NCBI GenBank assembly: GCA_029564595.1
Contig: JAKQPS010000154.1
Span: forward strand, 1 to 33,409
Direction: 5' to 3'
Source of the DNA: a bacterium
GTDB lineage: Bacteria > UBP15 > UBA6099
Length of the DNA: 33,409 nt
Every line of letters starts with the position of its first letter. Position 1 is the first letter of the stretch. Under the pieces are notes generated by a model. That model did not search any database. It saw only the letters and a program-made list of their open reading frames with translations, and was not told the origin of the DNA. The translations under genes were made by a program, and so were the position numbers. Positions 1 to 20,125 of the stretch are shown in pieces.

Positions 1-124
1 CCTTTCCCAATACCTTTTCGCATGATACGCGCCGACGGGAAGAGCGAAGCCTTTCCATCGGCGCTAGCTTGAAAGATTTTGAAAGGGTTTTTAAGGGAAA
101 ACTTTTTCAAAAGTTTTCCCTTAA
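1..124 (+). repeat. Composite hairpin repeat, type A copy 1
   Basis: A GC-rich hairpin (29-64) is followed by a linker containing TTGAAAGATTTTGAAAGGG and a near-perfect AT-rich hairpin (91-124, 16-bp arms, 2-nt loop). Bases 1-125 are identical to 284-408. The copy may extend past the window edge. Short reading frames across it only translate the repeat and are not genes. Confidence 0.85.
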
Positions 125-136
125 CAACATTAAAAG

Positions 137-244
137 CGCCTCCGGCGGCCAAAGAGAAACTTTTGAAAAAGTTTCTCTTTGGATTCTCTTCAAAACTTTT
201 CAATGCGCGACGGGAAGGGACGCTACCGCGTCCCTTCCCGTCGC
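137..244 (-). repeat. Composite hairpin repeat, type B copy 1 (inverted)
   Basis: Read on the minus strand the order is GC hairpin (207-244, 38 nt, 17-bp stem), linker, AT-rich hairpin (149-182, 34 nt) and mini hairpin CGCC-TCC-GGCG (137-147). The AT hairpin matches the copy at 7862-7895 on the opposite strand. The outer flank at 245-260 matches 7784-7799. It sits between the two identical type A copies. Confidence 0.85.
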
Positions 245-283
245 TCCTGTGAAATCATTTATAAATAAGATTCCTCTGATAAT

Positions 284-407
284 CCTTTCCCAATACCTTT
301 TCGCATGATACGCGCCGACGGGAAGAGCGAAGCCTTTCCATCGGCGCTAGCTTGAAAGATTTTGAAAGGGTTTTTAAGGGAAAACTTTTTCAAAAGTTTT
401 CCCTTAA
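284..407 (+). repeat. Composite hairpin repeat, type A copy 2
   Basis: This is an exact copy of 1-124, with GC hairpin at 312-347, linker at 348-373 and AT-rich hairpin at 374-407. It lies 25 bp past the stop of the minus-strand zupT-like gene, so the AT hairpin could also act as that gene's 3' end structure or terminator. That function is inference. Confidence 0.85.
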
Positions 408-432
408 CTCCCCTCTCTTATTCCTTCCATTC

Positions 433-1200
433 TCATTTCAGCAATGCAAGGCTCGCCGCCATGACAGCCATTCCGGCGATAATGCCGAATATCGGCGCGT
501 GTTCAGAATCGTAAGATTTCGCCACCGGAACAATTTCATCGACGGATATAGCGGTCATGATCCCGGCAACGGCGGCGAGCATGATGCCGAGCGCGGCGGT
601 CGTTAGCAAAGGCATCAGCGCCACAGCCGCAACGAGCGCTCCAAGCGGCTCGAACAACCCGGAATAGAACGACCACAGAAACGCCTTGCGGCGGCTGCCC
701 GTCGCCTCGTACACCGGCACGGTTATCGCAAGCCCTTCCGGGATATTGTGTATGGCTACCGCCACCGCTATCGCCGCTCCCAGATGATAGTCTTCCAGCG
801 CCCCGGCGAACGTCGCCATCCCCTCCGGAAAATTGTGTATCCCGATGCCTACCGCCATCAACAGCCCCGTCCGCTCCAAATTCAACTTGTTCTTCATGCT
901 GTCCGGGTGGTCGTGCTGACCGATGTAGTCGTGCGGAATCAGCAAGTCTATGAGGAAATACACGATCATGCCCGCGAAAAACGCTATGTAGGCATTCGCG
1001 CCGCCCGCTTTCTGCGCGCCCAGCGGCACAAGCTCCATAAACGACACCCACAGCATTACCCCCGCCGACAATCCGAGCGTGAACGCCATGAATTTCGGCC
1101 CCGGCTTTTTCACCGCCAGCCCCAGAACCGCGCCTATCGCGGTGGCCATGCCCGCAAACGCCGTGAGCGTCAGCGCGGATATAACTCTCTCGTCGAACAT
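433..1200 (-). CDS. zupT: ZIP-family divalent metal transporter (ZupT-like)
   Basis: This is a 255-residue inner-membrane protein predicted to import zinc, iron or other divalent metals. It has about eight hydrophobic segments and the two paired ZIP metal-site motifs, HNFPEG at 122-127 and HNIPEG at 151-156, at the spacing seen in ZupT. Length matches the family (about 257 residues), and the N-terminus lines up with the first membrane helix, supporting the ATG at 1200. AGAGG lies unusually close to the start. The gene stands alone; downstream are only composite hairpin repeats. The metal specificity cannot be read from the sequence. A CDF metal transporter lies about 4.6 kb away, but nothing ties the two together. 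Confidence 0.93.
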   Translation of the reverse strand: MFDERVISALTLTAFAGMATAIGAVLGLAVKKPGPKFMAFTLGLSAGVMLWVSFMELVPLGAQKAGGANAYIAFFAGMIVYFLIDLLIPHDYIGQHDHPDSMKNKLNLERTGLLMAVGIGIHNFPEGMATFAGALEDYHLGAAIAVAVAIHNIPEGLAITVPVYEATGSRRKAFLWSFYSGLFEPLGALVAAVALMPLLTTAALGIMLAAVAGIMTAISVDEIVPVAKSYDSEHAPIFGIIAGMAVMAASLALLK

Positions 1201-1339
1201 GCCTCTATTTTACCAGAACTAATCCGCGCTGCGAACCGTCAGCATAAAACCAAAGCTTTCGAGCAAGCGGCTCAATGCGGCCGATCCCCTTTCGCTTAAG
1301 CGCCGCGCAATCATAAAACACGCAGCCCCTCTTCCAAAA

Positions 1340-1368
1340 TTGACAGTAAAAAACAGCGGCGCTATCAT
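1340..1368 (+). promoter_or_regulatory. Sigma70-type promoter for the sialidase-like gene
   Basis: A perfect -35 TTGACA (1340-1345) is separated by 17 bp from -10 TATCAT (1363-1368). The predicted transcript start is about 25-30 nt before the TTG start at 1402. Confidence 0.7.
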
Positions 1369-1401
1369 TCACCTGCCGATATTGAATCCGGAGGAAGCAG
1401 A

Positions 1402-2478
1402 TTGACAGCCAAGCGACTCGACGCAGAAATAGTTCCGCTGGCGGAAAACAAATCCCGCCGTTGCGCGCAACCCTGCGCCACTCGCGTGCGCGACAACTAC
1501 TATCTTTTCATCCATCACGACTCGAAATCGTCCGAGCCTCCCGGAATTCTCAAGTCCGACGGCGCGCTAAGGGCTATGGTCGGCTCCTCCCCTATGTCTC
1601 CCGACCTCTCGACAGCCAGAAATATTCCAAGACTCACCCGCGCCGGAACCGCCCCATCTGTCATCAGACTGTCAGACACCCGCGCGCTCGCCATAGATAA
1701 CAGGTGGCTTATCTACAACTGGCTAGGCGAGCCTGACGTCCAGCTCCTCAAAGGCAGCGAGCTTGTCACCGTCCTTGTCGGCGCTTGCTCAGTTATGATC
1801 GACTGTTCAGGAGACAAACCTCTTTTTGGCATTCCGAAGTTCATTCGCGCCCTCCACTACCCTGTCGTCTCAAGTTACGACTCCCCCGTCGTTCTTGATG
1901 ACGGTTCGATTCTATGCCCAGTCGATTACGATTCCTATTGTACACAGATGGGCGATAGACCATGGGAAACCGTAATATTAAAAAGCGACAAAGACTGTTC
2001 GGACTGGAAACTTTACGCCGAGATTTTTATGCAGAAAGACAACCCCGACATGCCCCCGATGTGCCGGCCCTCTGTCAAGCGCGCCGCTGACGGCAACCTG
2101 ATTTGCGCGATGCTTGGTGCGAATGAAAAACAACAGATTTATGTTTCGGTTTCAAATAATGAAGGAAAAACTTGGAGCCTGCCCACACCATCCGGCTTCA
2201 GCGGAACCACTCATTCATTGATCCCGCTCGCCGACGGTCGTCTTCTGATAGCCTACACCGACTATCAAGCTCCTTTTGGAATTCACATTCGCGTCAGCGA
2301 AGACTCCGGGAGAACGTGGCCGGACTTTGAATGCCGCCTCCTTGATGACTCTTCTGTTTCAGGCGACTGCGGCTGGACTCGCGGATTTCAGTTGGACGAC
2401 GGCTCCGTCTTCATTTCATACTACGTAACCGGCAAGAAAAAAACTACCTCCATCTTAGGCGCTGTTTTTCAAGTCTGA
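1402..2478 (+). CDS. Sialidase-superfamily (Asp-box/BNR) protein
   Basis: This 358-residue protein starts at TTG, set by GGAGG at 1390-1394, seven bases upstream. It carries two Asp-box motifs, SNNEGKTW (251-258, Asn replacing Asp) and SEDSGRTW (299-306), the turn signature of six-bladed sialidase propellers. The pattern DDGS(I/V) repeats at 166-169 and 332-335, as in BNR-type exo-sialidases. There is no signal peptide or membrane anchor, so it appears cytoplasmic and may act on imported oligosaccharides. I could not identify the full Arg triad and Tyr/Glu nucleophile pair, so glycosidase activity is unproven; a carbohydrate-binding or other propeller function is possible. It is less GC-rich than most genes here. 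Confidence 0.75.
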   Translation: MTAKRLDAEIVPLAENKSRRCAQPCATRVRDNYYLFIHHDSKSSEPPGILKSDGALRAMVGSSPMSPDLSTARNIPRLTRAGTAPSVIRLSDTRALAIDNRWLIYNWLGEPDVQLLKGSELVTVLVGACSVMIDCSGDKPLFGIPKFIRALHYPVVSSYDSPVVLDDGSILCPVDYDSYCTQMGDRPWETVILKSDKDCSDWKLYAEIFMQKDNPDMPPMCRPSVKRAADGNLICAMLGANEKQQIYVSVSNNEGKTWSLPTPSGFSGTTHSLIPLADGRLLIAYTDYQAPFGIHIRVSEDSGRTWPDFECRLLDDSSVSGDCGWTRGFQLDDGSVFISYYVTGKKKTTSILGAVFQV

Positions 2479-3640
2479 CCTATCTTCATCTCGTCTCAAT
2501 TCCGCTAATTTTGTCGCCGGGCCTCTGAAATCTATTTGCTTGCTTCAATCCGCCTTCTTTCGCATCATCGCGAGAAAGAACTAAATTTTACCATTGCGCA
2601 AATATCTTGCTTTTTTGCCTTTGTTGCTATTTAAGAGTTTCTCCTCTTTCTGTCCACTTGTCCAACACATTTGCCAATAGCTAATTATTGGCTTAATTAC
2701 TATCATATTACGATTCTTCAACATCGGCCTGCTCTACTAGGCATTTCGTTATAACTCTTTACTCATCACTAGACACGCCCACTTTGCTTGATTCGATGCT
2801 TTGTCCATTTATGGAATGCCACACTGGTCCGCGCCGCTCTTCGTTATTTTGTCATATAGCAATGCTTTTTCCTGAAACCTTGCGGAGAGCCTTTTTCTTC
2901 TATCCGTAATCTCCTTATTCAGACATGCAACAAAGCATAACGCAGATGTTTTTTTCTTTTTAATAAAAGCATATTTAAATATATCATGCTTCATGATTTT
3001 TGCGCGTGTTCACAGCGCTTCATGCGGATATCAGACATGCGAACACTGTTTTCAGCATTATGTCCATTTCAATTATTCCTTTATAAATGCTTTTTTTTAG
3101 ATTTATAGAAAGATTTTATCGCATGTGTTTTAGTTGTTGCGACATCTTGTCCGCTCAATATCGGTTTTCTTCTTTTTCACATCTCGCGTTATTGCGAAAA
3201 TTGCTTGCCAGACATTCTAAGCATATTTTTACTTGATTTATATCTAGTTGGACACCATATCATGCCGTTGTCTTTTTGTAAGTGAAAGGCGCTGCACGGA
3301 TTATTCAATCAACAAAAACAAACACTTATCAAAGTAAAATCTCGTTTGCGGCAATATGCCGCGATTGATTCTCGGCCTGAATAAATTCCACGATAAGCAC
3401 AAAGGACAAGTGCGGCGACTTAAGAGGTTGCTCCGGTCGCTCGCTTTCAAAGCCCCCTGCATATCGTCAAGTCAATCAGCGCATCATACCAACAAACCTA
3501 GTCGTGACACGGAACATAGGCAACGTGATATTTGACTCGGAAGTTAACAGCCTATTGTTTTGGATAAAGAAAACAATATCTTTGTGCATCGCCGCCTCTA
3601 CTGCCTTTCGGCTTGTTTTTCTTTTTTAATTATTGTCGCG
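2479..3640. other. AT-rich gene-poor region
   Basis: About 1.2 kb holds no convincing gene. It is much richer in A/T than the flanks. From 2480 to about 3260 the plus strand is pyrimidine-rich, which is the skew expected if minus-strand genes once lay here. A ribosome-binding-site-like AAGGAAT precedes a minus-strand ATG at 3067, but the frame hits TGA after 15 codons. A 61-codon minus frame (2809-2994) is Lys-rich, has no family signature and is probably chance. A small perfect hairpin (GCGGCA-ATA-TGCCGC) lies at 3348-3362. Confidence 0.5.
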
Positions 3641-3677
3641 CAAGAAAAAAGGCGGAAGCATTTATTGCCACCGCCTT
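3641..3677 (-). terminator. Intrinsic terminator of nrfHA
   Basis: On the minus strand, AAGGCGG (3677-3671) pairs with CCGCCTT (3655-3649), with an inner GCA/TGC pairing, and runs straight into a T-rich tract. It lies about 43 bp past the nrfA stop. Confidence 0.75.
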
Positions 3678-3719
3678 GTATCTTTTGAAATTGACTAATA
3701 TTCGATGATCGAAATGAAG

Positions 3720-5111
3720 CTAATTTGCGGCTAAAATCCTCATTGCCGATATCTGGCCTTGCCGCGAGAAGTCAATCGACTCGGCCAGCAGTCGCATGGC
3801 TTCTTGGGGCGCATGGAAGCCCATCGAGTTTTCGGAAGAAACATAATCGAGCCTCCATTGAGCCTTTCGCTGCAGGGCTAGCGAGGGCGCGAGGGCATCT
3901 TCTGAAGCGCCGGCATTTTTAGCCGCGACGACAGCGTCGAGCATGTCGGTGTAAGCCTTGGCGGCTTCCGTCATTAGAACATAAGTTTTGTCCTGAATAT
4001 TATCTACGCGAGCTTTAATTTCGGTTTCCGAAATATTGTGACAAGGCTGGCAGGCGCGGTTTATGTTGAGTAGAGGACTGCGCACCCAATGGTCCGCCGT
4101 CTTGCCCGCTCCGACCCTCATGTAGGGCATGTGGCAATCCACGCAAGCCACCCCGGCGCGCGCATGTATTCCTTGATTCCACATTTCGAATTCCGGATGT
4201 TGAGCCTTAATGACGCCCGCGCCTGTTTCCGCGTGAGTCCAGTCGTTGAATTGAACTTCGTCATAATATTTCTCTATGTCGTCGGCTTTGAGGCCGTTGT
4301 GCCATGGGAAGGTGAGAGTTTTGCCTTCGCCCTTGAAGTAGTATTCGACATGGCACTGACCGCAAACATAGCCGCGCATTTCGGCGCGGGTGGCGTCCCG
4401 GTTGACATCGTAGTCGGCGACGCCCTGACTGGCCTTGTATTGTTTTATGCCATTAATGAAGCCGGGGCGGGTGACGCGCACTTTCATAGTCATCGGCTCA
4501 TGGCAGTCTACGCAGCTCACGGGGTGTTCGACGAGTTTTTTGCCGTCGGCGTTAGTGATGGCGGCCGCTTCCTCGTAAGGCATGGCGTTGACGATGTCGA
4601 AGCCCTTCATAACGTCGCCGTCGCCTTTAAATCGGTAGGCGGCAATTATGGAAGAGTGGCAGTGGAGGCAGGCTCCGGGCTGTTTCCTCTCCTTGACGCG
4701 GCGGGTTTCCTGTTGGTCTTCAAGCATATAGGCGTGGCCGCGCCGTTCGCGATAGTCTAGGGAGAACGCGTATCCGGCATAGAGGCGGAGCAGCCACGGG
4801 TCGCGCTCGGATTTCTGCGGCGGAAGAGCCTCGCTGCCGCCGAACCGGGTGTGCGTGGCGTCCACCGTTTTTAGATAGTTGTCGTATTGAAGAGGGAAAG
4901 TGCGGCCCCACACTTCGGGGTCGGTTGTGTTTTCGTCGACGTCGGCCAGCCAAGTGAACGGAGTGTAAGACTCCGCTTTGCGCGTCTGGATGTTGATGAG
5001 GAGCGCGGCGACGGCGGCGGTCAGGGCGGCGGCGGCGATGAACACCGCGACTATAAGCAACAGGGACGCCGCTCCCTTCTGGGCTGAACTGTTGTTCCCG
5101 TCTGATTTCAT
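3720..5111 (-). CDS. nrfA: Pentahaem cytochrome c nitrite reductase, catalytic subunit
   Basis: NrfA reduces nitrite to ammonium with six electrons on the periplasmic side of the membrane. The 463-residue protein has an N-terminal hydrophobic signal/anchor (about 14-40) and five haem motifs: CLHCH (148), CVDCH (200), CGQCH (250), CVDCH (323) and CQPCH (354). CGQCHVEYYF contains the family's conserved active-site Tyr (257), and HPEFE (305-309) the distal His. The first, catalytic haem motif is CxxCH rather than the usual CxxCK. The ATG at 5111 is chosen because GGAGG precedes it; a longer frame to 5288 overlaps nrfH and adds no plausible signal. It follows nrfH by 68 bp and ends at a clear terminator. 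Confidence 0.95.
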   Translation of the reverse strand: MKSDGNNSSAQKGAASLLLIVAVFIAAAALTAAVAALLINIQTRKAESYTPFTWLADVDENTTDPEVWGRTFPLQYDNYLKTVDATHTRFGGSEALPPQKSERDPWLLRLYAGYAFSLDYRERRGHAYMLEDQQETRRVKERKQPGACLHCHSSIIAAYRFKGDGDVMKGFDIVNAMPYEEAAAITNADGKKLVEHPVSCVDCHEPMTMKVRVTRPGFINGIKQYKASQGVADYDVNRDATRAEMRGYVCGQCHVEYYFKGEGKTLTFPWHNGLKADDIEKYYDEVQFNDWTHAETGAGVIKAQHPEFEMWNQGIHARAGVACVDCHMPYMRVGAGKTADHWVRSPLLNINRACQPCHNISETEIKARVDNIQDKTYVLMTEAAKAYTDMLDAVVAAKNAGASEDALAPSLALQRKAQWRLDYVSSENSMGFHAPQEAMRLLAESIDFSRQGQISAMRILAAN

Positions 5112-5179
5112 GCTTTTTCCTCCATGCTGTATGTTGGCGCGCGTCGCCGGGAGACCCCGCAGGGCGCGCTTAATGCCGA

Positions 5180-5665
5180 TCATTTCGGGCCGTGTCCGAC
5201 GCTCTTGTGGCAGTGGACGCATTTTGCGCCTTCCCCGTTGCCCATCTTTTCCATCGCGACGATGTTTTCCACCATGTCCTTGTGGCATCTTTCGCAGTTT
5301 TCCTGAAGTATCTCTGCGTTGTGGGGTTTGATTCTAATCGGCCAATCGAAGTTCTGGAGTGTGAACGCTGCGGAATGGTGGTAGCCGTTCATACTTTTGG
5401 CGAAATATTTTCCGGCGATATCGTGAGGCAGATGACAATCGACGCAGAGGGCTTTTTCCCTGTGCGGGCTGTTGTTCCACGAGTCGAACTGCGTGTTCAT
5501 GATATGGCAGTTGCGGCAGGCTTCGGGTTCGGACGACATGTAAGAGAGTCCGTGAGCGTAGTGGAAAGTGAAAGCGCCGATGCCGGCGGCGGCGCCGAAG
5601 ATGGCGGCGGCAACGGCGAGCCAGCCGAAGTTCGAAGAGACGAAGGTTCGAATCCGGTTGAGCAA
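5180..5665 (-). CDS. nrfH: NapC/NirT-family tetrahaem quinol dehydrogenase
   Basis: NrfH takes electrons from menaquinol and passes them to NrfA as its membrane partner. The 161-residue protein has one N-terminal membrane helix (about 14-36) and four haem motifs at 50, 74, 124 and 149. The first is CRNCHIM, the CxxCHxM form that gives NrfH-type haem 1 its Met. The start is TTG at 5665, with GGGGGAG eight bases upstream. It is first in a two-gene operon with nrfA, the usual order. A good promoter precedes it at 5725-5752. Confidence 0.95.
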   Translation of the reverse strand: MLNRIRTFVSSNFGWLAVAAAIFGAAAGIGAFTFHYAHGLSYMSSEPEACRNCHIMNTQFDSWNNSPHREKALCVDCHLPHDIAGKYFAKSMNGYHHSAAFTLQNFDWPIRIKPHNAEILQENCERCHKDMVENIVAMEKMGNGEGAKCVHCHKSVGHGPK

Positions 5666-5724
5666 AGGGACACTCCCCCGCGCCGACGGAGCGGCGCTTG
5701 TCTTATATGTTTGATTCAGGTATT

Positions 5725-5752
5725 ATTATACTACAATTTGCCCGTCTGTCCA
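5725..5752 (-). promoter_or_regulatory. Promoter of nrfHA
   Basis: On the minus strand, -35 TGGACA (5752-5747), a 16-bp spacer and a perfect -10 TATAAT (5730-5725). The leader to the nrfH start is about 60 nt. I see no convincing FNR or NarL site. Confidence 0.6.
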
Positions 5753-5764
5753 TACCCGCGCGAG

Positions 5765-5800
5765 AAAAAATTCTTGCCGTCCCTCGCGTTATTCCGACGG
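5765..5800 (-). terminator. Possible terminator of the CDF gene
   Basis: On the minus strand CCGTC (5800-5796) and GACGG (5781-5777) can pair around the end of the CDF gene, followed five bases later by a run of T. The stem is short. Confidence 0.35.
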
Positions 5801-6694
5801 CTCGATGTGGATAATGACGTCCACGACGTCCTGAACGTCGAACACGACGCGCCCGCGCGCGGCGGTCGCTATGTCGTGTCCGGCCCGGACGGAGATGTCC
5901 GGATCGACGAGGATGTGAAGGTTGACTTCGAAGCCGGAGCCGATGTGGCGGGCGCGGATTTTGTGCGCGGCTCGGACGCCGTCGACAGACAGCGCGGCGC
6001 GCTCGACGCGCCGGACGAGGTCTGCGGGAGCCCCGGCGTCCATAAGCTGATTGACGGCGGGCCACGATATGCGCCACGCCGCGTGCAAAATGAAAGCGGC
6101 AACGACGACCGCTCCGACATGGTCGAGGAACTGAGCGCCGGGCAGCAGGCGCGCGCCCGCCACCGCCGCCGCCGCTGGGATCGAGCTTAATGCGTCCGAC
6201 CTGTGATGCCACGCGTTGGCGGCCATCGCCGGAGAGTTGACCTTCGCGGCCGCCGCCGCAGTCCATCTGTATAGAATCTCCTTTATTACTATCGAGCCGA
6301 GGGCCGCCCAGAGCGCGATCATGGCGGGCGGCGAAGAATGGCGCTCCTCAAAGGTGGTCAAGGCGTTGTAGATCAGGCCGACCGCGACCGCCGCCAGCGC
6401 CGTCCCTATAAAAACCGTCACGGCCGTCTCGATGCGTCCATGACCGTGCGGATGGTCTTCGTCCGGCGGCTTATGCCAGAACATAGATCCGACTATCACC
6501 GCGATATCCGTTACGGTGTCTGAAAGGCTGTGTATGGCGTCCGCGACCATTGCTTGGCTGCCGCCGAAAATCCCGGCGACGAACTTGGCCGCAGAGAGCG
6601 CGATATTGATAACGAGGCCGACGGAAGTGACACGCCTTGCCGCTCGCGCCGCCGCCGCGGGGCCTCCCGGAAAATGCCTTCTGATATTAGCCAT
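5789..6694 (-). CDS. Cation diffusion facilitator metal exporter
   Basis: This 301-residue inner-membrane protein should export a divalent metal in exchange for protons. Six membrane segments are followed by a C-terminal cytoplasmic dimerisation domain (about 215-301). The transport site is two HxxxD pairs, H55/D59 in AIHSLSD and H163/D167 in WHHRSD, the combination typical of Zn/Cd-type members rather than DxxxD manganese types. A His-rich loop HPHGHG is at 81-86. It lies 30 bp after the YkgJ-like gene on the same strand, so the two are probably co-transcribed. GGAGG lies 13 bases upstream of the ATG, slightly far. Substrate metal is not proven. Confidence 0.92.
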   Translation of the reverse strand: MANIRRHFPGGPAAAARAARRVTSVGLVINIALSAAKFVAGIFGGSQAMVADAIHSLSDTVTDIAVIVGSMFWHKPPDEDHPHGHGRIETAVTVFIGTALAAVAVGLIYNALTTFEERHSSPPAMIALWAALGSIVIKEILYRWTAAAAAKVNSPAMAANAWHHRSDALSSIPAAAAVAGARLLPGAQFLDHVGAVVVAAFILHAAWRISWPAVNQLMDAGAPADLVRRVERAALSVDGVRAAHKIRARHIGSGFEVNLHILVDPDISVRAGHDIATAARGRVVFDVQDVVDVIIHIEPSE

Positions 6695-6724
6695 GCTTTT
6701 TGTTTTTCCTCCGATTTGGCGATT

Positions 6725-7408
6725 TCAGCAATGGCACGGCAATAGCAGTTTCTCGCGCAAACAGGCCACAACTAGGCGGCGGACTCCGAGCGAGGCGTCT
6801 CCTGCGGCAGACGCAAAATGCGCCCTCGCCTGCTCTTCCACATCCCCCAGCCGCTTGCCTGCGCCGAACATCAGAAACACTTCCACAATCTGCTCATCCG
6901 TGGCTCCCGGCCACGGCGGCGGGACGGACGCCATCGAATCAGCGCATAGCTCCCTGTCCCTGTAAAGCAAAAATACTCTTTCCCGCCCCGGCTCCGCGAT
7001 GACCGCTTTGAGCCTGACCGACGGGTTGAGCGAAAACGACATCCCGGCGCTCAGCCGCATCATGTCCCTCTCGCCGTATATCGTCTTCTTCCTGCCGTCC
7101 GGGCCGCCGAAACCGCAACTGAAACCCGCGCAAACTTCCGGCCTCCGCTCGTATATGCCGCACCTGTCGTCTTCTCCCAGATACACGCACACGAGCGACC
7201 TCGTCCGGCACTGGATTATCTTGTGGTAACATTCAATGTCTTTATCGCACAACTCTTTCTTCTTCAGACAGAACGTTTCCGTCTCGTATTGCCCGGAAGC
7301 GATTTCATCGGGCGTCAGCATGGTTCCGCCCATGCGGCAGCACATCGCACTGCAATGCGCGATAAGCTCCAAACACTGCGGCATCGCGCCGCTCTCTCCC
7401 GGTTCCAT
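6725..7408 (-). CDS. YkgJ-family cysteine-cluster protein
   Basis: A 227-residue cytoplasmic protein with at least twelve Cys in the first 100 residues (12, 19, 23, 24, 47, 54, 60, 67, 74, 83, 93, 98). The pair CSAMCCR and the closing YERRPEVCAGFSC form the signature of the YkgJ (UPF0153) family, thought to bind zinc or an iron-sulphur cluster. No enzymatic role is established. The C-terminal half (about 130-227) is not recognisable and ends in CHC. The ATG at 7408 has AGGGAG about ten bases upstream. The CDF gene follows 30 bp downstream, which fits a metal-related role, but that is inference. Confidence 0.75.
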   Translation of the reverse strand: MEPGESGAMPQCLELIAHCSAMCCRMGGTMLTPDEIASGQYETETFCLKKKELCDKDIECYHKIIQCRTRSLVCVYLGEDDRCGIYERRPEVCAGFSCGFGGPDGRKKTIYGERDMMRLSAGMSFSLNPSVRLKAVIAEPGRERVFLLYRDRELCADSMASVPPPWPGATDEQIVEVFLMFGAGKRLGDVEEQARAHFASAAGDASLGVRRLVVACLREKLLLPCHC

Positions 7409-7489
7409 ATCGAAAACGCTCCCTGTGTTTCATTATACTGCCACCGCCGCCGCCGCAAGGAGAGTTAAGGGAAAACTTTTAAGGGGAAA

Positions 7490-7582
7490 TAAGGGAAAAC
7501 TTTTAAAAAAGTTTTCCCTTAAACCCTTTCAAAACGTTTCATGCTAGCGCCAAAGTCGGAGCTTCGCTTCCGCCTTTGGCGC
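7490..7582 (-). repeat. Composite hairpin repeat, type A copy 3 (diverged, inverted)
   Basis: On the minus strand the order is GC hairpin (7547-7582, 36 nt), linker, AT-rich hairpin (7490-7521). The GC hairpin has the same length and the same GCTTCGCT apex as copies 1 and 2, but different stem bases that still pair. The flank resembling TCATGCGAAAAG is also kept (7586-7597). An extra half arm of the AT hairpin lies at 7465-7481. Confidence 0.8.
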
Positions 7583-7629
7583 GTGTCATGCGAAAAGAGA
7601 GGGAAAAGAAAAAAATAAAGCGACGTGGC

Positions 7630-7753
7630 CGCCTTCGGCGATTGGGGAAAACCCTTTGAAAAGGGTTGTTCCCCAAACCCCTTTCCTAAATTCTTCAATT
7701 TTGTTTTGGCGGTTGCGATTGCGAAAACGCAGGGGCGACCCGCCGGGTCGCCC
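7630..7753 (-). repeat. Composite hairpin repeat, type C copy 1
   Basis: Mini hairpin CGCC-TTC-GGCG (7630-7640), AT-rich hairpin beginning TTGGGGAAAACCC (7642-7676), linker containing TTGAAGAATTTAGGAAAGGG on the minus strand, and GC hairpin GGGCGACCC/GGGTCGCCC (7733-7753). Its module order matches types A and B. The AT hairpin recurs at 20033-20067. Confidence 0.75.
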
Positions 7754-7799
7754 GGATAGGATGACTCGTTGGAATATGTTTCCAAATGATTTCACAGGA

Positions 7800-7907
7800 G
7801 CGACGGGACGCGACGCTGGCGCGTCTCGTCCCGTCGCGCATTGAAACGTTTTGAAGAGATTCCAAAGAGAAACTTTTTCAAAAGTTTCTCTTTGGCCGCC
7901 GGAGGCG
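7800..7907 (+). repeat. Composite hairpin repeat, type B copy 2
   Basis: GC hairpin (7800-7837), linker containing TTGAAACGTTTTGAAGAG, AT-rich hairpin (7862-7895) and mini hairpin CGCC-GGA-GGCG (7897-7907). It is an inverted copy of 137-244. With the two preceding elements it forms a three-element cluster upstream of the hybrid kinase. The rest of 7908-8075 holds only AT-rich leader sequence. Confidence 0.85.
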
Positions 7908-8075
7908 CTTGCGAATATTGCCGCTACATTGTCATGGTTTTAATAAGTATTTCAAAAATGGAAAATTAGCGCTACTATGTTATTGAATCAAACAAATCGA
8001 ATATGACGAATCTTATATGTCGTTCATGGCGGCTTTTGCGACAGAGACTTATTGAGAGATTCAAGGAGCACAACG

Positions 8076-11000
8076 ATGACAGGAACTCTTGATTTCGTTT
8101 ATGCAATGAATCTCGCTACGGCTGTGGCGATAATAAGCGCGCTTCGTTTCATTGAGATGTTTCGCATAATATTTGATAAAATGTCGCAACCGCCCGATTC
8201 AGGCCCGGAATCATCGGCTCTTATCATTGCCAACAAGGCAAACACGAGACAATACAATAAACGAGGCGCATCAAGCGCCGAGCGCTCTCTTGCCGTAAAG
8301 CTGTGCGTTTCCGGGCTAATCTTTTTGGTTGCGGCAATCGCAATGCTGAGTCCTTTTCAGGCCTGCGCCACTGAAACAATCGCGCCTGTGGTTCGAAGCG
8401 CCGCGGAGATTGATTATCCTCCCTTTTCCATTGTCCACGAAGATGGGAGGGCCGACGGTTTTTCCGTCGAATTGATGAGAGAGACTCTCGGTAAGATGGG
8501 CCGCAAGGCAACCTTCCGAACCGGGCCATGGGCGGAGGTAAGAGGATGGCTGGAAAAAGGCGAGATTGACGCTCTGCCGCTTGTGGGACGGACGCCGGAA
8601 CGGGAACATCTCTTCGACTTCACATTCCCTTACATGACAATGTATGGCGCGATTGTCGTGCGGAAGGAAGCGAATGCTCGAAGTCTGGCGGATTTACGAG
8701 GACAGCAGGTATGTGTCATGAAAGGCGACAACGCGGAGGAATTTCTTCGGCGAGAGAAAAGGGATTTCATAATCTCCACGACGCCCTCTTTTACAGACGC
8801 TTTCCATGCGCTGTCGAAAGGAAGCTGCGACGCTGTGGTTGTTCAACGACTCGTCGCGTTGCGTCTTTTGGAAGAAACCGGGATAAGGAATCTGAAAATA
8901 GTCGATGCCCCGGTTTATGGGTTTTCGCAAGATTTCTGCTTTGCGGTCAAGAAGGGCGACAGCAAGTTGTTGTCGGTTTTGAATGAAGGACTGGCTTTAG
9001 CCGTAGCCGACGGGACGCACCGACGGCTGCACGCCAAGTGGTTTGCGCATCTTGAGTTGCCGTCTGACCGCACTATTGTCATTGGCGGCGACCACAACTA
9101 TCCGCCCTTTGAGTTTTTGGATGAAAAGGGCCGCCCTGCGGGATTCACCGTAGAGTTAACGCGGGCTGTCGCGCGCGAGATGAATATAGACGCGCGGATT
9201 CAACTGGGGCCGTGGGCCGACATGGTAGACGCGTTGCGCGACGGAAAAATCGACGCGCTTGAAGGAATGTTCTACAGCCCGGAACGCGATCGCGTTCTGG
9301 ATTTCTCGCCGAGATATTTAGTGATTCATTGCGTCGGCGTAGTGAGGAAAGGCGAAGGGCCGCCCCCCTCTAAAATCGAAGAATTGCGGGGTCGAGACCT
9401 AGTCGTGCAAGCCGGGGACGCCATACTGGACGCGCTAGCGGAACACGGAATCGAGGCTAGGGTAACCACCGTCGAGACGCAGGAAGATGTCGCGCGCGCG
9501 GTGGCCGAAGGCCGGAACGACATCGGACTTATGACCCGGTTCGGCGCGCTGCACGCTGTCAGAAAATACGGATGGAAAAATATCGAGATCGGCCGTCAGG
9601 CATTCTATTCAGGCGAGTACGCCTACGCCGTGCCGCAGGGAAACGAAGCGCTGCTTGCACAATTCACGGAGGGGCTGCGGATACTTAAAGACTCCGGAGA
9701 GTATCAGCGGATTTATGAAAAGTGGCTTGGCGTATATGAGCCGAGCATATCCTCGCGGGAGGCAATAAGGCGCGTCGCCCTCGTTGCCGCTCCGCTGCTT
9801 ATGATCGTGATATTAGCCCTGCTATGGTCTTGGTCTTTGCGACGGCAGATAGCGGTCCGCACGAGGGAACTCAGAGAGAGTCTGGAGCGTTTTAGGGCTG
9901 TGTTCGAGGCGGCGAACGTGGGAAAATCCATAACATTGCCGACGGGCGAGATTAATATCAATAAGGCTTTTGCCGATATGCTCGGCTACTCGGTTGATGA
10001 CCTTAAGGGTAAATCTTGGCAGGAACTCACCCCGCCCGAAGACGTGCCGGAGACGGAGCGGCGCATCGCCCCTTTGCTCGATGGCAAGGAAGACCACACG
10101 CGTTTCGATAAGAGATACGTCCGCAAGGACGGCAGCGCTGTATGGACGGACGTCAGTTCGACAATCCGGCGCGACAGCAATAACAACCCTCTTCACTTCA
10201 TCACCACGGTGGTTGATATAACAGAGCGCAAGCGGGCCGAGAAGTTTCTGCGCGAAAGCGAGGAAAGATACCGTTCGACACTAGACGGAATGCTGGAAGG
10301 ATGCCAGATAATCACGCCGGAATGGAAATACGCCTACGTAAACGAAGCGGCCGCCCGCCACGGCCGCAAAAGAACTGATGAACTGATCGGCCATACTATG
10401 ATGGAGGCGTATCCGGGCATCGAAGACACCGAACTTTTTTCTGCGCTTCGGGAATGCATGATGGAACGCGTTCCCCGGCGTTTCGAGAATGAGTTTAAAT
10501 ATGCCGACGGCGGGCGGGGCTATTTTCAACTCAGCGTCGAACCTGTGCCTGAAGGCTTGTTCATTCTCTCACAGGACATCACTAAACAGCGCATCATGGA
10601 AGCCCAACTGATACAATCCCAGAAGATGGAGTCTGTCGGGCGGCTGGCCGGGGGCGTGGCGCACGATTTCAACAACATGTTGTCAGTAATAATCGGCAAC
10701 GCGGAAATTGCTATGGCGAGCATGGATGCCGCAGATCCCATCTATAAAGACATTGAGGAAATTCACAAGGCGGGGGAACGGTCAGCCGAACTTACTCGCC
10801 AACTGCTGGCTTTCGCCCGCAAACAGACTGTTTCTCCCGTAGCGATGGACTTGAACAAAAGCGTGTCGAACATGTTGAAAATGCTGCAACGGCTCATCGG
10901 CGAGGATATTGACCTTGTATGGAAACCGGGACACAACATCTGGACGATAAAAATTGACCCATCACAGATCGACCGGATCATTGCCAATCTGATAGTGAAC

Positions 11001-11741
11001 GCTAGAGAATCAATCGCCGGCGTGGGCAAGGTTACTATAGAAACGGAAAACACGGCGCTGGATGAAGAGTACTGCGCCGACCATATTGGTTTTATTCCGG
11101 GTGAATACGCGATGATCGCGGTAAGCGACGATGGGTGCGGCATGGACACTGAAACGCTTAATAACATATTCGAACCTTTCTACACCACTAAGGGAAAAGG
11201 CACCGGGCTTGGGCTGGCTACCGTTTATGGAGCCGTCAGACAGAATAACGGTTTCATCAACGTGTACAGCGAACCGGGCAAAGGCTCCACGTTCAAGGTG
11301 TATCTGCCTAGATTCGAAAGCGAAAACGGCGAAGAGACGGCAAAAACCGGGCCGCCTCGCTTACGGCCAACAGGCACAGAGACTGTTCTGATAGTTGAGG
11401 ACGAGCCGGCGATTCTGTCGCTGGGAAAGAGAATTCTAGAAGGGTTGGGCTATAAGACGCTCGCCGCCAAAACGCCGTCAGAAGCTTTTCAGAAGGCTGA
11501 GGAATACGCCGGAGATATTCATCTGCTGCTTACCGATGTGGTAATGCCGGAGATGACTGGACGCGAAGTCGCGGAGAAACTCGGCGCAACACGGCCTAAC
11601 ATGAAATTTCTGTACATGTCCGGCTATACCGCTAACGTAATCGCGCATCATGGCATTTTGGACGCCGGCGTGCGCTTCGTTCAGAAACCATTTTCGGTAG
11701 ACGAACTTGCGCAAAAAATCCGGGAAGCGCTCGACGGTTGA
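8076..11741 (+). CDS. BvgS-like hybrid sensor histidine kinase
   Basis: A 1221-residue inner-membrane sensor. In order: a hydrophobic segment (about 5-26), a second hydrophobic/export segment (about 72-95), two SBP_bac_3 solute-binding domains (about 100-325 and 330-548), a membrane helix (about 567-588), two PAS domains (about 600-725 and 730-850), a HisKA domain with GGVAHDFNNM (phospho-His 863), an ATPase domain with N box NLIVNARESI (N975), DDGCGMD and GKGTGLGLA, and a receiver with LLTDVVMP (phospho-Asp 1154). Paired SBP domains recall BvgS/EvgS, which sense small periplasmic solutes. AAGGAG at 8063-8068 sets the ATG at 8076. No partner regulator lies in the window, so its targets are unknown. 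Confidence 0.93.
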   Translation: MTGTLDFVYAMNLATAVAIISALRFIEMFRIIFDKMSQPPDSGPESSALIIANKANTRQYNKRGASSAERSLAVKLCVSGLIFLVAAIAMLSPFQACATETIAPVVRSAAEIDYPPFSIVHEDGRADGFSVELMRETLGKMGRKATFRTGPWAEVRGWLEKGEIDALPLVGRTPEREHLFDFTFPYMTMYGAIVVRKEANARSLADLRGQQVCVMKGDNAEEFLRREKRDFIISTTPSFTDAFHALSKGSCDAVVVQRLVALRLLEETGIRNLKIVDAPVYGFSQDFCFAVKKGDSKLLSVLNEGLALAVADGTHRRLHAKWFAHLELPSDRTIVIGGDHNYPPFEFLDEKGRPAGFTVELTRAVAREMNIDARIQLGPWADMVDALRDGKIDALEGMFYSPERDRVLDFSPRYLVIHCVGVVRKGEGPPPSKIEELRGRDLVVQAGDAILDALAEHGIEARVTTVETQEDVARAVAEGRNDIGLMTRFGALHAVRKYGWKNIEIGRQAFYSGEYAYAVPQGNEALLAQFTEGLRILKDSGEYQRIYEKWLGVYEPSISSREAIRRVALVAAPLLMIVILALLWSWSLRRQIAVRTRELRESLERFRAVFEAANVGKSITLPTGEININKAFADMLGYSVDDLKGKSWQELTPPEDVPETERRIAPLLDGKEDHTRFDKRYVRKDGSAVWTDVSSTIRRDSNNNPLHFITTVVDITERKRAEKFLRESEERYRSTLDGMLEGCQIITPEWKYAYVNEAAARHGRKRTDELIGHTMMEAYPGIEDTELFSALRECMMERVPRRFENEFKYADGGRGYFQLSVEPVPEGLFILSQDITKQRIMEAQLIQSQKMESVGRLAGGVAHDFNNMLSVIIGNAEIAMASMDAADPIYKDIEEIHKAGERSAELTRQLLAFARKQTVSPVAMDLNKSVSNMLKMLQRLIGEDIDLVWKPGHNIWTIKIDPSQIDRIIANLIVNARESIAGVGKVTIETENTALDEEYCADHIGFIPGEYAMIAVSDDGCGMDTETLNNIFEPFYTTKGKGTGLGLATVYGAVRQNNGFINVYSEPGKGSTFKVYLPRFESENGEETAKTGPPRLRPTGTETVLIVEDEPAILSLGKRILEGLGYKTLAAKTPSEAFQKAEEYAGDIHLLLTDVVMPEMTGREVAEKLGATRPNMKFLYMSGYTANVIAHHGILDAGVRFVQKPFSVDELAQKIREALDG

Positions 11742-11843
11742 TCCTCTTTTTTTTTGCGCCTGCTTTGAATAAAGCAAAAAACACAGCGCGTCAAATCATG
11801 CTGAATTCATCATTAGGATTAGGGCTTAAACATTTTCACAGGA

Positions 11844-11938
11844 GCGACGGGACGCGACGCTGGCGCGTCTCGTCCCGTCGCGCATTGAATCGTTTTGAAG
11901 AGATTCCAAAGAGAAACTTTTCAAAAGTTTCTCTTTGG
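11844..11938 (+). repeat. Composite hairpin repeat, type B copy 3
   Basis: GC hairpin (11844-11881) identical to that at 7800-7837, linker with one base change, and AT-rich hairpin (11906-11938, one T shorter). The mini hairpin is missing. It lies between the convergent 3' ends of the hybrid kinase and wecB genes, where it could serve as a two-way terminator. Confidence 0.85.
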
Positions 11939-11960
11939 CTTATCGCTTTTTTCTATGTTT

Positions 11961-13115
11961 TCATGCGTTTTCTGGAGAGGCGAATTCATCGGGGCGGGAT
12001 TGGGCGTGGTTGAATTTATAGAGGAGGAAATCGGCGATGCGGCGGGAGGCAAGGCCGTCGCCGTAGGGATTGGAGCCGCGAGTCATTGAAGCATAGAAGA
12101 CCTCGTCGTCCAAAAGTCGGGAGGCGAAGGAGAAAATCTTTTCGCGGTCAGGACCGATGACGGCGGCGGCTCCGGCGGCGACGGCTTCCGGGCGTTCGGT
12201 GACTTTGCGGAGCACCAGCACGGGGGTTTTAAGGGAGGGGGCTTCCTCCTGAACGCCGCCGGAATCGGTAAGAATGAGGCGGGCGCGTTTCATGAGGGAG
12301 ACGAACGGGAGATAGTCCTGCGGGGGCAGGATGTGGGCGCGCGGGAGTCCGCCGAGAATTTCGCGGGCGACATCCTGAACTGCGGGATTGAGGTGAGCCG
12401 GGAAAACGATGTGGGCGTCCGAGCGTTTTTCGGCGATGTCGCGCAGGCCGAGGCAGATTTCCCGCATGGGAGCGCCGAGGTTTTCCCGCCTGTGCGTTTC
12501 GACGAGGATGATGCGGGCGTCTTCCGGAACTCCGTCCGGCAACGCGGACGGGGCCGGCATTTCGGCCGCTAGCAGAAGCGCGTCTATCACCGTGTTTCCG
12601 GTGATGAATATGTTTTCCGGCGGTTTGTTTTCGGCGAGCAGTGTGTCGCGCGCGCCTGATGTGGGAGCAAGAAGGATATCGGCAAGCGAGTCGATCATGG
12701 CGCGGTTCATTTCTTCAGGGAACGGGTTGTAGCGGTCGCCCGTTCTGAGGCCGGCTTCGACGTGGCCGACGGGGATGCGCGCGTAGTAAGAAGCGAGAGC
12801 GCCGACGAAGGATGTCGTGGTGTCTCCATGCACGAGAACAATGTCGGGAGATATGGTTTCGAGCGCGCGTTCCATGCCTTCTAGCGCGCGGGTGGTCACT
12901 TGGGTGAGCGTCTGGCGGTCGAGCATTATGTTCAGGTCGATGTCGGGTTTGAGGCCGAACAGCGACAGCATCTGGTCCAGCATCGCGCGGTGCTGGCCGG
13001 TGACGACAATTTTGTGGTCGATCTGCGGCCGGCGGGCGAGTTCGAGGGCGACGGGGGCCATTTTTATCGCTTCCGGCCTCGTTCCGAACACCGAGCACAC
13101 TTTCAGTTTCTTCAT
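11961..13115 (-). CDS. wecB: UDP-N-acetylglucosamine 2-epimerase (non-hydrolysing)
   Basis: WecB/MnaA interconverts UDP-GlcNAc and UDP-ManNAc in the cytoplasm for surface polysaccharides. The 384-residue protein matches family length and carries GTRPEAIK (11-18), HGDTTT (96-101), GHVEAGLRT (117-125), PFPEEMNR (131-138), a DSGGVQEE motif and TERPE, which together build the UDP and active-site pocket. It begins four bases after the wecA stop and is almost certainly translated with it. There is no clear ribosome binding site beyond the end of wecA. No wecC-type UDP-ManNAc dehydrogenase follows, so the fate of ManNAc is not shown here. Confidence 0.95.
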   Translation of the reverse strand: MKKLKVCSVFGTRPEAIKMAPVALELARRPQIDHKIVVTGQHRAMLDQMLSLFGLKPDIDLNIMLDRQTLTQVTTRALEGMERALETISPDIVLVHGDTTTSFVGALASYYARIPVGHVEAGLRTGDRYNPFPEEMNRAMIDSLADILLAPTSGARDTLLAENKPPENIFITGNTVIDALLLAAEMPAPSALPDGVPEDARIILVETHRRENLGAPMREICLGLRDIAEKRSDAHIVFPAHLNPAVQDVAREILGGLPRAHILPPQDYLPFVSLMKRARLILTDSGGVQEEAPSLKTPVLVLRKVTERPEAVAAGAAAVIGPDREKIFSFASRLLDDEVFYASMTRGSNPYGDGLASRRIADFLLYKFNHAQSRPDEFASPENA

Positions 13116-19957: not shown

Positions 19958-20019
19958 AGTAAATAAAGATAAGTCAAAGAAAAGAATAAGAAAAAGAATA
20001 AAGAAGCAACAAACGCCCG

Positions 20020-20067
20020 CCGCCTGCGGCGGTTGGGGGAAATCCTTTGAAAAGGGTTGTTCCCCAA
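20020..20067 (-). repeat. Composite hairpin repeat, type C copy 2 (partial)
   Basis: Mini hairpin CCGCC-TGC-GGCGG (20020-20032) and AT-rich hairpin TTGGGGGAAATCC/GGGTTGTTCCCCAA (20033-20067), then a linker resembling that of copy 1. The GC hairpin is missing; a small hairpin GCTAAT/ATTAGC lies at 20105-20121 instead. It sits between convergent genes. A purine-rich run (19965-20010) precedes it. Confidence 0.7.
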
Positions 20068-20125
20068 ACCCCTTTCCCAAACTTTTTAATCCTGTTAACA
20101 TGTGGCTAATACGCAATTAGCGCGT

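Follow-up and report, generated by a model that had tools for sequence, protein, structure and literature searches.

Repetitive extragenic palindromic (REP) sequences and the related REPINs and bacterial interspersed mosaic elements (BIMEs) are dispersed extragenic palindromes whose inverted pairs can fold as a clover or as a long hairpin, and the transposase TnpA-REP reads a strand-specific bulge, mismatches and the loop on single-stranded REP (PMC8266576, PMC3116915). Here, we analysed a contig of 33.4 kb (the window, taken at its full length of 33,409 nucleotides) from a bacterial metagenome-assembled genome (MAG) of 4.40 Mb that is 97% complete (G000). A first-pass annotation had described two GC-rich hairpins in this window, at 312-347 and 7547-7582, as differing by compensatory changes, and had taken selection for the fold, in RNA or as a cruciform, as the simplest reading. 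Both are indeed 36-nt hairpins, in opposite orientation, each lying within a copy of one repeat. We propose, with a probability of about 0.58, that this repeat is a REPIN/BIME-like composite that folds as single-stranded DNA and whose alleles are spread by recombination.

The repeat has two halves. The A half consists of a leader CTTTTCRCATGATAC, the 36-nt GC hairpin, an arm TAGCATGAAANNTTTTGAAAGGG and a terminal palindrome TTAAGGGAAAACTTTTTCAAAAGTTTTCCCTTAA, and it is commonly preceded by an inverted B half with a palindrome CCAAAGAGAAACTTTTNNAAAAGTTTCTCTTTGG, an arm, a hairpin of 38-44 nt and a linker, the order of the composite inverted repeat being palindrome B, hairpin B, linker, hairpin A, palindrome A. 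We call sense strand the direction from hairpin through arm to palindrome. There are 93 outward-facing adjacent B/A pairs (no more than 700 nt apart), with an anchor spacing mostly of 145-153 nt, around 148, while longer spacings (about 230-300) contain other nested repeats. The A and B arms are complementary, and in a DNA fold of the 275-nt unit at 134-408 two terminal hairpins flank a clover containing the GC hairpins of A and B.

A search with a covariance model (R2) in four congeneric MAGs, namely G000 and the records UBP15_UBA6099, ADurb.Bin236 and USCA_metabat.19_sub (labels G002, G003 and G001, in that order), found 62, 49, 54 and 54 A halves, in agreement with BLAST, and none in 56 other genomes. 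These MAGs are fragmented, frequently at the repeats themselves, and since assembly breaks coincide with repeat units the copy counts are lower bounds; contigs C22, C68, C69 and C107, as well as the window at position 1, have a terminus no more than a few hundred bases away from a unit. Within this composite inverted repeat, which is dispersed and restricted to one genus, the hairpins are the modules that vary. In a sister genus (G004) a related architecture of arm and palindrome occurs with a different stem, GCAATTCC/GGAATTGC, and a variable apex, as read from 26 candidate sites. An apex conserved across genera, suggested by a single G004 copy, was dropped after those sites had been read. In this sister genus the base of the stem is fixed and the apex highly variable, once even reversed (GCTTCGC for GCGAAGC; L156 compared with L151). 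Within called genes no repeat island was found (0/126); 47 islands lie between convergent genes, 29 between codirectional and 11 between divergent ones, the corresponding numbers for other gene pairs being 43, 258 and 79, where gene calls come from our own open reading frame (ORF) and codon score and are approximate.

Each hairpin preserves its fold under a varying stem sequence, and it is one of the two strands that is constrained. In 63 distinct 36-nt alleles, 93.5% of the cells are paired against 86.2% after shuffling (0 of 500 shuffles reached the observed value), structures slid along the alignment reach at most 46%, and the covariation score is 0.245 against 0.112, with two-sided changes at 8 pairs. 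Relatedness was taken into account with a phylogeny-aware, R-scape-like G-test (own script, two-set version, 300 nulls). The covariation that the first-pass annotation had proposed to look for in a larger alignment is there: pairs 8-29, 11-26 and 13-24 are significant (E about 0.0007-0.0025), and 12-25, 9-28, 15-23 and 6-31 have E between 0.1 and 0.18. In the one-set version, where every pair is a hypothesis, helix pairs have E of at least 0.2, and for type B (34 rows) the two-set test gave no significant pair. Among the 84 allele pairs that are two substitutions apart, 15 are hit on both sides of one pair, against 6% expected, and at 12/25 the copies show G-C 67 times, G.T 24 times, A-T 14 times and A.C never. 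The covariation of the A hairpin is genuine, and modest after correction for relatedness; the alignment breaks the assumption of a tree because alleles recombine.

The favoured strand can be recognized from loops and mismatches. Beside a bulged base, the A apex reads GC-GNA-GC in 108 of 109 copies (GAA 86, GCA 15, GTA 6, GGA 1, other 1), and 52 of the 65 B apices are GNNA tetraloops. RNA is expected to prefer GNRA loops; since a purine occupies the third place in just 9 of the 52 GNNA loops, the B loops are not of this type. GNA and GNNA loops on at least two G-C pairs are extraordinarily stable DNA mini-hairpins, and both apices, GC-GNA-GC in A and GC-GNNA-GC in B, obey this d(GCGNAGC)/GNNA rule (PMC4686876), although the rule comes from oligonucleotide chemistry and what we describe is a conserved, strand-specific feature of a genomic repeat, known from sequence. 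Mismatches follow the same orientation. On the sense strand of distinct A alleles G.T occurs 31 times and A.C 10 times; with contexts collapsed the figures are 16 G.T to 8 A.C and 14 G.A to 3 C.T, and B hairpins have 130 G.A to 9 C.T. With DNA parameters the sense strand is the stabler one in 45 A alleles against 6 and in 55 B hairpins against 9, all these tallies being drawn from related alleles and not from independent trials. With A and B facing outward, the favoured strand of one half is opposite to that of the other half of the unit, and a single RNA could not use both. Loops and mismatches tied to one strand speak for a constraint that acts on the strand as folded, rather than for pure mutation bias, and we hold with moderate confidence that the sense strand may fold as single-stranded DNA in the manner of REP/REPIN and IS200-type elements (PMC3116915, PMC8266576). 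Instead of the RNA or the cruciform of the first-pass annotation, the evidence thus tilts to single-stranded DNA.

Comparison of orthologous sites reveals how the alleles come to differ. We assembled 30 ortholog groups, set by the unique right flank, giving 77 between-genome pairs with a mean flank identity of 0.926. In 24 of the 77 a 36-nt hairpin stands opposite an unrelated GCGGCGGAGCG class; 34 are 36-nt on both sides, and 14 of these differ at 9 or more of the 36 positions; 6 pair class 4 with class 4, and 13 are unclassified. Hairpins at different loci of one genome resemble each other slightly more than do hairpins from different genomes (permutation p 0.03), which is the outcome expected under concerted evolution. 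Over the 8 variable pairs only 12 alleles out of 64, or 19 copies out of 109, are perfect, and 13 alleles can be described as arm-swap chimeras of such perfect ones; these could be recombinants or G.A intermediates on a stepwise path, and the data fit either. From one orthologous site to another the hairpin alleles differ blockwise, some with arms recombined at the apex. Larger events are also seen: G001 has the unit at 7489-7895, whereas in G003 it is deleted between the two palindrome cores with a hybrid palindrome AAGGGAAAACTTTTGAAAAAGTTCTCTTTGG remaining, and another unit (L032) lies at the junction of two segments found on different contigs in relatives.

Given the frequent replacement of whole hairpins at orthologous sites, 312-347 and 7547-7582 are two alleles of a shared pool, and their differences are probably best read as mainly block exchange by recombination, not as five changes in place. 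The pair-by-pair description of the first-pass annotation held in part. Both copies have Watson-Crick pairs at 6/31, 12/25, 13/24 and 14/23 with both sides changed, 14/23 depending on the register because of a one-base bulge near the apex (sense position 14/15), and 11/26 is A.C in one copy and C-G in the other, as described. At 8/29 both sides did change, but the first copy has T.G, a wobble on the minus strand only and a C.A mismatch on the sense strand. One pair was lost: 10/27, which had been omitted, has G-C in the first hairpin but is unpaired in the second, with T.C (sense G.A). In type B, 10/29 went from A-T to C-G as noted, while 12/27 went from G-C to C.T and lost its pair. The shared GCTTCGCT apex, assigned to the minus strand, is there at 312-347 and on the plus strand at 7547-7582, being the antisense of the element in both. 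As for selection on the fold, what survives is the covariation in the larger alignment; the five compensatory changes in place do not, as orthologous sites often differ by whole alleles, and selection is not the sole reading of the paired changes, template switching being another.

According to the mechanism that we propose, the sense strand would be exposed as single-stranded DNA by replication, repair or recombination, and the exposed strand would form mini-hairpins with GNA or GNNA loops, the whole unit folding into a clover. The folded hairpin may be what is recognised, by a putative protein, or tolerated, in REPIN/BIME fashion, and homologous recombination among copies would spread alleles, generate mismatched chimeras, delete units and join segments of the chromosome. 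It should be noted that several observations weigh against this proposal. No clean empty site with target duplication was found among the relatives' loci, which were picked by exact palindrome and are skewed to occupied sites, so that mobility of the unit stays hypothetical. The sister genus keeps the base of the stem while the apex varies, so that the apex rule is valid within one genus only. Seven of 511 non-helix pairs were likewise under the significance threshold, because alleles fall in linked classes, and alleles are not independent, so that counts overstate the number of events. RNA parameters also prefer the sense strand (31 A alleles against 10, 50 B hairpins against 14), less strongly, and folding of a single strand inside the cell is something that we infer from sequence.

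The last preference would suit RNA elements at gene 3' ends, transcribed from convergent genes as terminators, stabilisers of messenger RNA ends or protein-binding stem-loops, with pairing selected in RNA. Units are strongly enriched between convergent genes and absent within genes, and G.T (G.U) intermediates occur at 6/31 and 12/25, as such a role would have it. We nevertheless consider it possible but unlikely: no one transcript holds both good apices, the GNNA loops of B have mostly a pyrimidine at the third place, the palindromes have no clear T tract, Rfam at gathering scores has no match in the window, and REP-like repeats, too, are located at gene ends for no other reason than that such places tolerate them. 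A terminator scan of 1-12000 gave few repeat-associated matches, at 149-182 (+), 155-139 (-), 7635-7617 (-) and 7753-7733 (-), with weak tails. Distinctly less likely, in our judgement, is that mutation alone made the pairs, with template switching (quasipalindrome correction) copying one arm onto the other in replication, stable DNA loops making such events frequent and no selection acting on the fold. The mechanism is published, yields compensatory pairs and has stable loops enriched at its events (PMC8794818); multi-base paired blocks separate several of our alleles, and the B hairpins at 7800-7837 and 11844-11881 have the apex TGGC where G001/G002 relatives (L193, L088) have GCCA, a loop inversion that is a possible footprint of template switching. 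Correction cannot be dominant, however, if as few alleles are perfect as reported above; the surviving mismatches are strongly strand-biased, which would not be predicted from a process symmetric on the duplex, and the orientation of the A loop is nearly fixed (108/109).

The idea that the hairpins are independent, functionless self-palindromes, alike only through shared ancestry of the frame, we find scarcely credible. Hairpin classes do differ blockwise, and the stem of the sister genus is unrelated; yet alleles are common to loci and genomes and carry paired single-position changes, and conservation extends to the frame, the bulge, the apex rule and the spacing. This counter-explanation, which the first-pass annotation had itself named, is largely refuted by the common allele pool. 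A more elaborate scenario, which we regard as improbable, is that of cassettes swappable by fold only, in which a putative recombinase or HUH-type enzyme of this lineage would read the bulge and the GNA/GNNA loop on the folded single strand and actively exchange hairpin modules among dozens of sites, as a REPIN-like system lacking a REP-associated tyrosine transposase (RAYT), diversifying in sequence but constant in DNA shape. Integron attC sites, recognised by their fold, with a stem free to vary and bases left unpaired on one of the strands, would look similar, but neither R'/R'' core boxes nor a cassette array were noticed here, no dedicated test having been made.

Returning to the REPIN/BIME-like composite folding as single-stranded DNA, the present family shares with REPINs and BIMEs the dispersed extragenic palindromes in tens of copies (49-62 A halves per genome), copies nested and clustered, inverted pairs foldable as clover or long hairpin, and a strand-specific bulge, mismatches and loop on the folded strand. 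It differs from them because the unit is longer (about 270 nt with terminal palindromes), has two different hairpins, retains fold and apex under a varying stem sequence, and lacks a Y1 transposase in G000 or G003: the profile PF01797 found no match in these two genomes, with a positive E. coli control. The sequence 5' of A is mostly GATAC or GACAC, not GTAG; REP groups vary in the GTAG-type motif. As in miniature inverted-repeat transposable elements (MITEs) and other palindrome-associated elements of the IS200/IS605 kind, the unit is short and non-coding, with inverted symmetry and subterminal hairpins; unlike MITEs, it gave no target duplication or clean empty site, only nested insertions, deletions and rearrangement junctions being seen in the empty-site check, and its positions are mostly common to congeners.

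A Y1 transposase was also considered as partner of the unit and rejected, being absent from G000 and G003 and, in G001, having REP-like hairpins of its own. The G001 gene (L091:1201-1920) encodes a RAYT-like Y1 protein of 185 amino acids, with inverted GTGGCACGCACAAACTTGNTTTGTGCGTG hairpins on either side, between B and A halves; bracketed by its own GTGGCACGCACAAACTTG hairpins, it is a nested element, apparently a second, RAYT-bearing REP system within the unit. No autonomous partner was found, no whole-genome search for DDE transposases having been made; the loci with a long B-A distance hold this nested RAYT segment (L091) and an unrelated ORF of 283 amino acids (L107).

Table. Features of the composite repeat and its neighbours in the window
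Feature	Positions	Strand	Basis or remark
Direct repeat	1-125 / 284-408		100% identical
Hairpin A, exact duplicate of 312-347; tail of preceding unit cut by contig start	29-64	+	direct repeat; covariance model match G000:C72:11-92
Terminal palindrome A, TTAAGGGAAAACTTTTTCAAAAGTTTTCCCTTAA	91-124		repeat family D2
Terminal palindrome B, CCAAAGAGAAACTTTTGAAAAAGTTTCTCTTTGG	149-182		repeat family D2
B arm, complementary to A arm 348-373, closing the unit on itself	183-206	-	sequence; DNA fold of 134-408
Hairpin B, minus-strand sense, apex GC-GGTA-GC (GNNA)	207-244	-	
Inter-hairpin linker; in other copies frequently holds nested repeats	245-311	+	
Hairpin A, plus-strand sense, apex GC-GAA-GC, bulged base 5' of apex	312-347	+	covariance model match G000:C72:294-375
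A arm, TAGCTTGAAAGATTTTGAAAGGG...	348-373	+	
Terminal palindrome A, first unit	374-407		
Terminal palindrome A, second (inverted) unit	7489-7522		
Inverted, diverged copy of the direct repeat	7490-7597		
Hairpin A, second unit, sense GCGCCAAAGGCGGAAGCGAAGCTCCGACTTTGGCGC, 10/27 = G.A	7547-7582	-	covariance model match G000:C72:7519-7600
'Type C' palindromic repeat (GCCGCCTTCGGCGATTGGGGAAAACCCTTTGAAAAGGGTTGTTCCCC...), nested in linker of second unit	7619-7705		family D6
Small GGGCGACCC hairpin, further repeat nested in linker of second unit	7733-7753		
Hairpin B, second unit, apex TGGC (reverse complement of GCCA)	7800-7837	+	
Terminal palindrome B, second unit	7862-7895		
Hairpin B of lone B half, between convergent genes	11844-11881	+	family D4
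Terminal palindrome B, lone B half	11906-11939		

Other repeats accompany the units. The type C repeat has a second copy at 20019-20096, between convergent genes, and the GGGCGACCC...GGGTCGCCC hairpin family is present in the linkers of many units, and also at loci L035, L036, L040 and L048. Segments of the form GAACCCGAATCCGTC...GACGAATCCGGGTT (L110:1378-1558, L078:1400-1493, L085:2121-2471), located in units or intergenic, are a further repeat family with clear presence/absence, one species having a segment that another lacks. At L036:1622-5845 (relatives L063, L067, L073 and L111) a gene for a secreted-looking protein of about 1400 amino acids has units on both sides and is far more divergent between copies and species (68-90%) than most flanks.

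The family offers a natural case, in many copies and several species, for testing selection on DNA hairpins, as distinct from RNA hairpins, from sequence: one strand retains the GNA/GNNA loops known from oligonucleotides and tolerates chiefly the mismatches that can be accommodated on it. The family also shows that covariation tests need care when applied to dispersed repeats, where alleles traded by recombination mimic repeated compensatory change. Finally, it adds a REPIN-like family lacking a RAYT to an uncultivated lineage, of which, to our knowledge, there is no cultured member.

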